Assembly: GCA_030696085.1 (NCBI GenBank)
Contig: JAUYNL010000029.1
Coordinates: 1 to 64,000 of the forward strand
Direction: 5' to 3'
Origin: Luteolibacter sp.
GTDB lineage: Bacteria > Verrucomicrobiota > Verrucomicrobiia > Verrucomicrobiales > Akkermansiaceae
DNA length: 64,000 nt
The position numbers were made by a program, and so were the translations under genes. Below are positions 1,595 to 5,109 of this stretch, piece after piece. Numbering within the stretch: the stretch's first letter is position 1; each line of letters begins with the position of its first letter. The notes beneath the pieces are model-generated. The model was not told the DNA's origin, did not search any database, and saw nothing but the letters and a program-made list of their open reading frames with translations.

Positions 1595-1615
1595 CAGGGT
1601 TTGGTGCGCTCGCGG
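1595..1615 (+). promoter_or_regulatory. Candidate ECF-sigma promoter, copy 1
   Basis: The sequence CAGGGTTT, ten bases, then CGG followed by TTTTGAA lies 94 bases before the start at 1709. The same two blocks with the same 10-base spacing recur at 2245-2265 and 5089-5109, each before a small secreted protein gene of this island. The two-block layout and spacing fit -35 and -10 elements of an ECF sigma. Assignment to the sigma encoded at 871 is an inference from proximity. Confidence 0.5.
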
Positions 1616-1708
1616 TTTTGAACCCATCAAGCCGCTGGTTTTTATCGAATGGAGCACTCTGCTCGGATCGATGACCGGCGGGAAACAATAACCAGAACCC
1701 CAAGAACC

Positions 1709-2089
1709 ATGAAATCGACATTCAGAAACCTGATCATCACGGCATTCGCCGCCGGACTCGTTGCAACAGTCTCCGCCGCCCCTCCCGGGAAAGGCACCGG
1801 AGTTTTCAAAGCGGCCACCACCCAGGAAGAGATTCAAAAGCTCAAGAAGGGTGACCGCTATGCGGTAGTCTGCATGGATTGCAAGTCCGTCACCATGAAG
1901 GAAGTGGGCGACGAGGAAGAAGTCGCGGCGCTCTGTCACAATGGTGGCTCCATGCATTGTGATAGCTGCAAGAAAGACGTCTCCATCAAGCACCTGGGCC
2001 CTCCCGGAAAGGGAACGGACAAGACCGAGGTGACGATCGTGAATGCGGAGGGCAAGCCATGCATGTTCATCGTTCCGCTGAAGGAATGA
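1709..2089 (+). CDS. Secreted Cys-rich protein with two PPGKG motifs
   Basis: The 126-residue protein has a signal peptide (about 1-23, ending near VSAAPPGKG), two CxxC pairs (CMDCKS and CDSCKK), a CHNGGSMHC stretch and two PPGKG motifs that flank the cysteine-containing core. The start at ATG 1709 is chosen because it begins the signal peptide and is preceded by AAGAACC. The frame is open upstream, but a longer start would spoil the export signal. The cysteines and His/Met residues suggest a periplasmic metal-binding protein, but I recognise no named family. It sits alone between the sigma cassette and a second PPGKG gene, with its own candidate promoter and terminator. Confidence 0.72.
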   Translation: MKSTFRNLIITAFAAGLVATVSAAPPGKGTGVFKAATTQEEIQKLKKGDRYAVVCMDCKSVTMKEVGDEEEVAALCHNGGSMHCDSCKKDVSIKHLGPPGKGTDKTEVTIVNAEGKPCMFIVPLKE

Positions 2090-2120
2090 TAAATGTTGTT
2101 CGGTTTATTCATTCATTCAT

Positions 2121-2156
2121 CCTGCGGCATGCTCCGCAGGGCGGATTTTCTTTTTC
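2121..2156 (+). terminator. Rho-independent terminator
   Basis: A perfect 7-bp stem CCTGCGG/CCGCAGG with a 6-base loop is followed by GCGGATTTTCTTTTTC, a T-rich tract. It lies 32 bases after the stop of the 1709 gene and so should end that transcript. Three ATTC repeats (about 2108-2119) sit just before the hairpin. Confidence 0.65.
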
Positions 2157-2244
2157 AGACGCATGCGCCGGAGGTGAATTGCGCTTCAAGATCGCTCCGG
2201 AGAAGGTCCATGCGGTGGGTTGAAAAACAATCTGATGTTTTTCC

Positions 2245-2265
2245 AAGGGTTTGGTCGGGAGACGG
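2245..2265 (+). promoter_or_regulatory. Candidate ECF-sigma promoter, copy 2
   Basis: AAGGGTTT, ten bases, then CGG followed by TTTACTAA lies 92 bases before the start at 2357. It matches copies 1 and 3 in both blocks and in spacing. It lies beyond the terminator of the preceding gene, as expected for an independent promoter. Confidence 0.5.
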
Positions 2266-2356
2266 TTTACTAATCGTTGTAACCGGCATCCCGGATTGTC
2301 GGCGAGGAACAATTCTTCTCTACGGGAAGACCGGAAACCAAACCAAACGCAAAGCC

Positions 2357-2578
2357 ATGAAAACCATCGGAAAAATCGCCTTGATCGTCACCACTCTCAT
2401 CATCGGAATTTCCAGTTCGCTGTCGGCATCACCCCGCGGCAAGCATGCCGTTGATTTCGCCATCCACAAGCATGGCGCGAGCCATACATCCCACGTGGAT
2501 CGCGACTATGTCCAGATCAAGCGCATCGGGCCTCCCGGCAAAGGAATCGTGCGGACGAACACCTCCCGGGCGAAATAA
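2357..2578 (+). CDS. Small secreted PPGKG protein
   Basis: The 73-residue protein has a signal peptide (about 1-23, cut near SLSASPRG), a short His-containing mature region (HKHGASHTSHVDRDY) and a C-terminal IGPPGKG motif very similar to the second PPGKG motif of the 1709 protein (LGPPGKG). It lacks the cysteines of that protein. The ATG at 2357 is chosen because it begins the signal peptide; the frame is open further upstream but does not look coding. The histidines make a periplasmic metal-binding role plausible. The family is not recognised, and the shared motif and promoter suggest a local paralogue group. Confidence 0.62.
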   Translation: MKTIGKIALIVTTLIIGISSSLSASPRGKHAVDFAIHKHGASHTSHVDRDYVQIKRIGPPGKGIVRTNTSRAK

Positions 2579-2626
2579 GAAAAGCCGGGTGCGCTTGAAT
2601 ACGGCGCTGGATTGTTATCATAAAAC

Positions 2627-2652
2627 CGCTTGGTGGTATCCGCCACCAAGCG
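2627..2652 (+). terminator. Strong hairpin before copA; terminator or operator
   Basis: The perfect 10-bp inverted repeat CGCTTGGTGG/CCACCAAGCG has a 6-base loop (TATCCG) and is followed by TAGTTGTTTTCC. It lies between the 2357 gene and the ATPase. The moderately T-rich tail fits termination of the small gene, while the length and perfection of the repeat would also fit a repressor operator for the ATPase. Confidence 0.5.
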
Positions 2653-2701
2653 TAGTTGTTTTCCACAATCGGCAACGGCCCGCCTTAACCCCCTGGAAAT
2701 C

Positions 2702-5017
2702 ATGATACATCAGCACAAAACGCCGCCTCCGGAGGCCTCATGCTGCGGGCATGCCCATCACGGCAACGGGCATGCTCACCCACCGGAATTCAAGCTGGGG
2801 CAATTCGTCTGCCCGATGTGTCCGGACATCGTATCCGACAAACCGGAAGATTGCCCGAAGTGCGGCATGCCATTGGAACAAGTGCCGCCGCTGCCATTCG
2901 GACCTATGGTTTACACCTGTCCGATGCACCCCGAGATCGAGCGGGAAGAGCCAGGCGATTGCCCGATCTGCGGCATGGCGCTCGAACCCAAGATGGCGAG
3001 AGGCGCGTCGGACGAACACTTGCAAGGGGAAATCCACGAACTGTCGCGTAAATTCCGGATTGGCCTCGCGCTGACACTGCCGGTGTTCCTGCTGGCGATG
3101 TTGCCGATGATTCCGGGAATCCCGCTTGCAGGCTGGATCCCGAAGGGCGTTTCAAAATGGATCGAATTCGCGCTCACAACGCCCGTTGTGCTGTGGGCCG
3201 GCGGGTTTTTCTTCGTGAAAGGCTGGCGCTCCCTCAAGGGCTGGAATCTCAACATGTTCACGCTGATTGCCATGGGGGTTGGTGCGGCCTATCTCTATAG
3301 TGTGGTGGCCGTTTTCCTGCCGGAGATGTTTCCGCCGTCGTTCCGCCATCATGGCGAGGTTTCCCTCTATTTCGAGGCCGCGGCGGTGATCACCGTGCTG
3401 GTTCTGCTAGGTCAGCTATTGGAGGCGAAAGCACGCAGCCGCACGGGCCAGGCGATCCGGGAATTGCTCGGGCTGGCCGCCAAATCGGCGACCCGGATCG
3501 CGGATGATGGCAGCGAGCAGGAAGTCGCCATCGATTCGCTGCGAGTGGGCGACCGCCTGCGCGTGCGGCCAGGCGAAAAAATCCCGCTCGATGGCACGAT
3601 CACCCAAGGTGCAAGCCACATTGACGAATCGATGATCACCGGCGAGCCGATCCCGGTGAAAAAATCGGCGGGTGATGCCGTGGTCGGTGCCACGATCAAC
3701 CAGAGCGGATCGTTCGTCATGACCGTCGGCAAGGTGGGCGCGGACACTCTGTTGGCGCAGATTGTCCGGATGGTGGCCAAGGCACAGCGCAGCCGCGCTC
3801 CGATCCAGAAATTCGCGGATACCGTGGCCGCTTGGTTTGTTCCGGCCGTGCTGGTGGCCGCGGTGATCACTTTTGCCGTGTGGGCGCTGTGGGGGCCGGA
3901 GCCGGCGATCGCGTTGAGTTTGATCAACGCGGTAGCGGTCCTGATCATTGCCTGTCCTTGTGCGCTCGGGTTGGCGACGCCCGTTTCCATCATGGTCGGA
4001 GTTGGCCGTGCGGCGCGGGAGGGCATTCTGGTGAAGGACGCGGAGGCGATCGAGACCACGGAGAAAATAGACACTCTGGTGGTGGATAAGACCGGCACCC
4101 TGACTGTGGGAAAAGCGAGCGTGACCGGTTTCCAAACCATCGCAGGGGTCGATGCGGATATGGTTCTGGCAGCAGCAGCAGCCTTGGAAAAGCATAGCGA
4201 GCACCCGTTGGCCCGTGCCATCGTCGCGCATGCTTCAGAAAGCGATCTGACTCTTCCCGCGGCCACGGATTTCCAATCCACAACTGGCGGCGGTATCGAG
4301 GGGACCGTGGAAAACCATTCGTGGAAGATTGGAAAACAGAACTTTGTCGGTGCGCCAGATGCCACATTGATCGATTCCGCGAAGCAGGAGCAAAGCGACG
4401 CCAAAACCATCGTCTGGGTGGCCCGTGACGGCGAACCCATTGCGTTTTTCGCGATCTCCGATCCGATGAAGGAAAGCGCTCCCGCGGCCGTCGCCCGCCT
4501 TCACTCGCTCGGTTTGAGGATCGTGATGGCCACCGGCGACAACGAAACCACCGCCCAAGCCGTGGGCCGTGCCCTTGGCATCGACGAAATCCACGCAGGT
4601 CTCTCGCCCGCGGACAAGATCGAGCTGATCCAGGGACTGAAATCCGCAGGTCGCCGTGTCGCGATGGCGGGCGACGGCATCAATGACGCCCCGGCCCTTG
4701 CCGCAGCCAATGTAGGCATCGCCATGGGAACCGGCACCGATGTCGCCATCGAAAGCGCGCACCTCACCCTGGTGAAAGGCGACCTCTCGGGCATCGCCAG
4801 GGCGATCGGAACGAGCCGGGCCGTCATGCGCAACATCCGCCAGAACCTGTTCTTCGCCTTCATCTACAATGCCGCGGGGATTCCCATCGCCGCCGGCGCT
4901 CTTTATCCCTTAACCGGAACCCTGCTCAACCCGATGATCGCCGCCGCCGCGATGTCGTTATCCTCGGTTTCCGTGATCGCCAATGCCCTCCGCCTGCGGA
5001 AACTCAAGTTGGAATAA
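2702..5017 (+). CDS. copA: Copper/silver P1B-type ATPase with two N-terminal metal-binding modules
   Basis: This 771-residue inner-membrane pump exports Cu+ or Ag+ from the cytosol using ATP. A His-rich N-terminus is followed by two Cys-rich heavy-metal-binding modules, CPMCPD...CPKCGMPLE (about 37-59) and CPMHPE...[10 protein letters not shown] (about 73-96), instead of classical GMTCxxC HMA domains. The core has the actuator TGEP motif, the transmembrane metal site C418-P-C420, the phosphorylated D462 in DKTGTLT, the SEHPLARAI histidine motif and the [10 protein letters not shown] hinge, all intact. The ATG at 2702 is chosen because it directly precedes the His-rich start; an upstream in-frame TTG falls inside the 2627-2652 hairpin. 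It belongs to the metal island and complements the CusABC-type exporter downstream. Confidence 0.93.
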
Positions 5018-5055
5018 AAACCTAAGCTCTACGAAGGAACCACATCACCCGCAGC

Positions 5056-5072
5056 CCGGGTGAAAAACCCGG
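5056..5072 (+). terminator. Hairpin after copA
   Basis: CCGGGT-GAAAA-ACCCGG forms a 6-bp GC-rich stem 38 bases after the copA stop. It is followed by TGAGTAAAAAAA, not a T-run, so as a terminator on this strand it is weak. Confidence 0.35.
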
Positions 5073-5088
5073 TGAGTAAAAAAATCCC

Positions 5089-5109
5089 AAGGGTTTCACT
5101 GGCTTACGG
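5089..5109 (+). promoter_or_regulatory. Candidate ECF-sigma promoter, copy 3
   Basis: AAGGGTTT, ten bases, then CGG followed by ACATTAA lies 53 bases before the start at 5162. It is the third copy of the motif, again with exactly ten bases between blocks, and again before a small secreted metal-binding-like gene. Confidence 0.5.

Follow-up and report, generated by a model that had tools for sequence, protein, structure and literature searches.

The closest described counterpart of the locus analysed here is the CnrYXH-CnrCBAT system of Cupriavidus metallidurans pMOL28, together with NccYXH, in which regulator genes in the order Y-X-H are followed by their targets. Two further ECF systems bear comparison. 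CorE senses copper via a Cys-rich C-terminal domain of its own. This ECF44 sigma factor of Myxococcus xanthus has copper genes as its targets (PMC3107203). In the account used here, SigAb-AabAB of Acinetobacter baumannii combines an autoregulated ECF sigma factor with a small membrane anti-sigma factor, and a CnrH-CnrY-like binding model is given for the pair (PMC12153292).

In the window, the whole 64-kb stretch of DNA analysed, we find a module that resembles CnrYXH in its gene order, with targets after the regulators, in its CnrX-like sensor and in the presence of RND efflux among the targets. It differs in its host, a member of the Verrucomicrobiota, in its copper genes and in its many small secreted proteins. 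Three copies of a motif, AGGGTTT-N10-CGG, lie in the module, and sequence comparison makes it very probable that they are promoters for the ECF sigma factor encoded at 871 and the output of a CnrYXH-like copper-sensing module. The features concerned are the following.

1..126, + strand: right-hand terminus of a repetitive mobile element that disrupts the anti-sigma gene (27 genomic matches, with ...TTTCCCC also closing eight further copies)
127..370, + strand: 3' remnant of a CnrY-like anti-sigma gene, opened by the duplicated target TGCGGGTTT (aligned to locus L029, where the gene is intact)
370..849, + strand: CnrX-like metal sensor of the periplasm (Metal_resist, PF13801, narrowly missing the Pfam cut-off at E 1.7e-6; CnrX and NccX lead the PDB matches)
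871..1437, + strand: ECF sigma factor (Sigma70_r2, r4_2, TIGR02937)
1584..1631, + strand: predicted promoter, copy 1 (-35 AGGGTTT at 1596-1602, CGG at 1613-1615, -10 at about 1616-1622, predicted start near 1629)
1709..2089, + strand: 126-aa secreted Cys-containing protein with CxxC motifs (ATG 1709; homologue behind the same motif at L028:16296)
2234..2281, + strand: predicted promoter, copy 2 (predicted start near 2279)
2357..2578, + strand: 73-aa secreted His-rich GPPGKG protein (ATG 2357)
2702..5017, + strand: copper-type P1B ATPase (CopA) with HMBD domains (TIGR01511, 590 bits; PF19335)
5078..5125, + strand: predicted promoter, copy 3 (exact motif, flank-only score p 0.003, predicted start near 5123)
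5162..5464, + strand: 100-aa secreted YHS-like protein (ATG 5162; matches YHS weakly at E 0.008; the motif also precedes its homologues in L074, L076 and C52)
5538..5903, + strand: 121-aa secreted Cys-rich protein (the motif likewise precedes genes for similar proteins in L031 and L075)
6012..12300, + strand: CusC-like outer membrane factor (6012-7256), CusB (about 7261-8943) and CusA (8950-12300), from domain and family matches

The first-pass annotation had overlooked both genes that precede the sigma gene, for the anti-sigma factor and the sensor, as well as the element splitting the first of them. A profile of the X sensor built without CnrX retrieves both NccX (1.3e-7) and CnrX (9.8e-7). 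Five residues of the sensor (H64, C71, C75, C113 and H120) are invariant, whereas the N-terminal His pair of the CnrX Ni/Co ligand set is absent. As CnrX in turn lacks these cysteines, the comparison suggests that the sensor binds a thiophilic metal such as Cu(I), and the targets (CopA, CusB, CusA/CzcA-family, YHS and Cys/His-rich secreted proteins) also point to a Cu(I)-type signal. For the Y protein there is no sequence match to solved CnrY, and it is the size, the single hydrophobic stretch and the position that fit. Other Verrucomicrobiota loci repeat the Y-X-sigma gene order ahead of metal resistance genes, and one relative with the system intact is Haloferula sp. BvORR071 (L031). The sigma factor itself is 30% identical to CnrH, but RpoE/AlgU-type chains score higher, so that it is nearer the RpoE type and not a CnrH ortholog. 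Unlike CorE, with which it shares copper genes as targets, it ends directly after region 4.2, without a C-terminal Cys-rich domain, and is accompanied by separate Y and X genes instead. With SigAb-AabAB it has in common a small membrane anti-sigma factor and, here as a prediction, autoregulation; the regulon is a different one, and the CnrX-like sensor has no equivalent in the account of that system used here (PMC12153292).

A pattern search of the window returned exact motif matches at 1596-1615, 2246-2265 and 5090-5109, all on the + strand, and no further exact match elsewhere in the 64 kb. This agrees with the three copies of identical blocks and spacing first described, except that the starts then given (1595, 2245 and 5089) are each one base early. 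With 27 exact matches in 3.77 Mb as the background rate for this genome, one strand of the first 5.1 kb should hold 0.018 copies, and the probability of at least three is about 1e-6, a post hoc figure. The description of a small secreted metal-binding-like gene after each copy also holds, as the products of 126, 73 and 100 aa have signal-peptide-like starts and carry CxxC motifs, a His-rich sequence and a weak YHS match, respectively; the L074 homologue of the 100-aa protein passes the Pfam YHS cut-off. An Rfam search of positions 1-20000 of the window found no RNA family.

The motif had been taken to define a local metal regulon. Comparative evidence supports this reading and widens the regulon by a further, paralogous island on contigs C81 and C52, which encodes a sigma factor of its own. 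This syntenic island encodes YXH, the 126-aa protein, the GPPGKG peptide, CopA, the YHS protein, the 121-aa protein and the outer membrane factor, and the three genes preceded by the motif correspond to those of the window. The extended motif is also present at C81:11655, 12375 and 15224. Other small secreted genes lie behind the copies at 11655 and 15224, and behind the one at 12375 we noted a possible CopB-like outer membrane protein (L028:12572-13405). The recognition helix is common to the sigma factors of both islands, which makes cross-talk between them likely. Several of the small secreted proteins (1709-2089, 2357-2578 and others in L028 and L095) share a (G)PPGKG sequence and all lie behind the sigma motif; these proteins gave no convincing Pfam match.

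The genome-wide search for the two blocks gave a divided answer. On their own the blocks are unspecific, with 27 exact matches against 9 for a reversed control pattern and 20 of the 27 outside the copper islands, and as a genome-wide marker the bare motif was dropped as too frequent. The flanks, in contrast, set the island copies apart. Alignment of sites near orthologous sigma genes yields an extended motif, approximately AATTTTTCAAGGGTTT-N10-CGG-TGTWTTACC. When flanks were scored with a matrix from other genomes only, with the AGGGTTT and CGG columns blanked, all seven island copies reached p <=0.003 (the top 0.3% of random positions), whereas 19 of the 20 off-island copies lay above p 0.02. 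Furthermore, the nine best matches in this genome to a model trained on sites of other genomes all fall in copper/YXH islands. Copy 3 is weak in this 48-nt model and was captured by the exact motif and the flank score instead. A good extended-motif match at C73:7042 (minus strand; L018) lies antisense within an lgt-like gene; it may be chance or an antisense promoter, and we treat it as chance.

Linkage of the motif to the sigma gene extends to other Verrucomicrobiota. Across eight orthologous loci from other genomes (60-78% identity), seven exact motifs occur on the sigma's strand within about 1.5-1.6 kb of the sigma gene, where 0.09 are expected, and none occurs on the opposite strand. They occupy two positions, one some 850-1400 nt ahead of the sigma gene, in front of either the anti-sigma gene or a small secreted gene that precedes it, and the other shortly past the sigma stop; CnrYXH likewise has promoters before Y and just past the sigma gene. 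In L028, which belongs to the second island of this genome, and in L030, the motif stands before the anti-sigma gene. In a search of 59 relatives, fifteen genomes (this one included) encode a sigma ortholog at E<1e-40; model matches at E<=1e-3 turned up in 8 of these and in none of the relatives without an ortholog; the carrier sites are partly training data, and the non-carrier genomes serve as the control. Among hold-out loci, from which L146, L150 and L154 were omitted as repeats of training loci, the motif is present at the same two positions in L147-L149, L151-L153, L158, L159, L163, L168 and L170, and no motif was found in L155 and L167.

With more distant sigma factors the motif reads AGGGGTT or AGGGATT at the same positions and with unchanged spacing, and its fifth base tracks a single residue, x in the KAVE-x-R sequence of the region 4.2 helix. 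T goes with Thr or Asn at 24 loci and A or G with Val, Met or Ser at 13, with four Thr-bearing sigma factors with AGGGA/G motifs as exceptions. Fisher's test of Thr against the other residues (23/4/1/13) gives P 1.6e-6, a value weakened by shared descent, as the sequences are related and the T label needs 3 changes on the sigma tree (13 for shuffled labels). CnrH has Gly at the same helix position, and its promoters read AGGGG.

In order to place the promoter elements, we turned to cnrYp and cnrCp of pMOL28, in both of which AGGGG stands 21 nt before CGTATA. The starts mapped there (PMC9045368) precede the genes by 24 and 25 nt and lie 33 nt after the A of AGGGG. By comparison, AGGGTTT would be the -35 element, sharing AGGG and ECF spacing with the CnrH promoters, and TGTWTT the -10 element, one base closer than in those promoters; transfer of the CnrH geometry predicts starts near 1629, 2279 and 5123. 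The CGG is a conserved, clade-specific block just upstream of the -10 with no counterpart in CnrH promoters. Taking CGG itself as the -10 is disfavoured, as it lies 4-5 nt too near the -35 relative to those promoters.

Linkage, covariation and CnrH-like geometry thus support the first-pass proposal that the motif is the target of the sigma factor at 871. Conserved blocks at fixed spacing can also be an activator site, and Cus and Cop genes are often under CusRS or CueR control; the motif might then be an operator through which another regulator, a two-component, MerR-type or CsoR-type protein, controls the copper genes, and would be linked to the sigma gene indirectly. We consider this improbable, because the motif stands before the YXH operon itself, has no match at E<=1e-3 in relatives that lack the sigma factor, varies along with the sigma recognition helix and matches the CnrH promoter geometry, while inspection of the copies revealed no consistent inverted repeat.

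That the copies are functionless remnants of a local or island duplication is less probable still. Two paralogous islands do exist, and copy 1 and C81:16189 are clearly homologous over their full length, but copies 2 and 3 have nothing but the motif in common, in line with the earlier remark that the surroundings of copy 3 differ and that no simple duplication is involved. Moreover, the copy-2 and copy-3 paralogue pairs have diverged around a retained motif, and independent genera retain it before different genes. Least probable of all is chance, a G+C-rich genome often yielding such patterns: the 27 exact matches with 20 off-island would fit it, but it is at odds with the separation of island and off-island flank scores and the excess near orthologous sigma genes, and the hold-out loci already disfavour it.

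What the sequences show directly is the motif with its conservation, linkage and covariation, the gene families and the synteny; from these comparisons we infer recognition by the sigma factor at 871, copper as the signal and the start sites. In the working state, the single-helix anti-sigma factor (Y) and the periplasmic sensor (X) would keep the sigma factor at the membrane until copper, probably Cu(I), is bound by the Cys/His set of X and the sigma factor is freed. RNA polymerase with this factor would then read AAGGGTTT as the -35 and the CGG-TGTWTT region as the -10, begin transcription about 33 nt past the A of AGGGTTT, and so transcribe its own YXH operon as well as the genes for the small secreted proteins, CopA and CusCBA.

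In this genome the anti-sigma gene is split. Contig C53 carries at its left end (L096:1-330) the promoter motif and a CnrY-like gene that is cut off after 22 codons and TGCGGGTTT, where the left end of the element begins. Beyond the element's right end, the window picks up with a second TGCGGGTTT, from which the remainder of the gene continues in frame. The 9-bp duplication TGCGGGTTT indicates an insertion in the anti-sigma gene. An anti-sigma start at ATG69 with a frameshift was ruled out, the stretch being mobile element. Insertions in cnrY or cnrX free CnrH in C. metallidurans (PMC4803752), which makes constitutive sigma activity plausible here; the same insertion also cuts the sigma gene off from its own promoter. 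The second island (L028 on C81, L095 on C52) is apparently split by a copy of the same element, with the flanking repeat GACAAAAA. Only tentatively, and with more doubt than confidence, we put forward a wider reading, in which Verrucomicrobiales ECF sigma factors of this clade would read a three-part promoter of AGGGN, CGG and TGTWTT, with the fifth -35 base set by one helix residue (T for Thr; G or A for Val, Met or Ser), and the anti-sigma insertion would have freed the sigma factor and left both copper islands constitutively on.

Taken as the output of a CnrYXH-like module, the three sites would offer a testable promoter code for copper defence, together with its sensor and regulon, in a phylum whose gene regulation is sparsely documented. 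They would extend the YXH sensing logic from nickel and cobalt in Proteobacteria to apparent copper sensing, and would connect metal stress with several small secreted proteins that as yet lack names.
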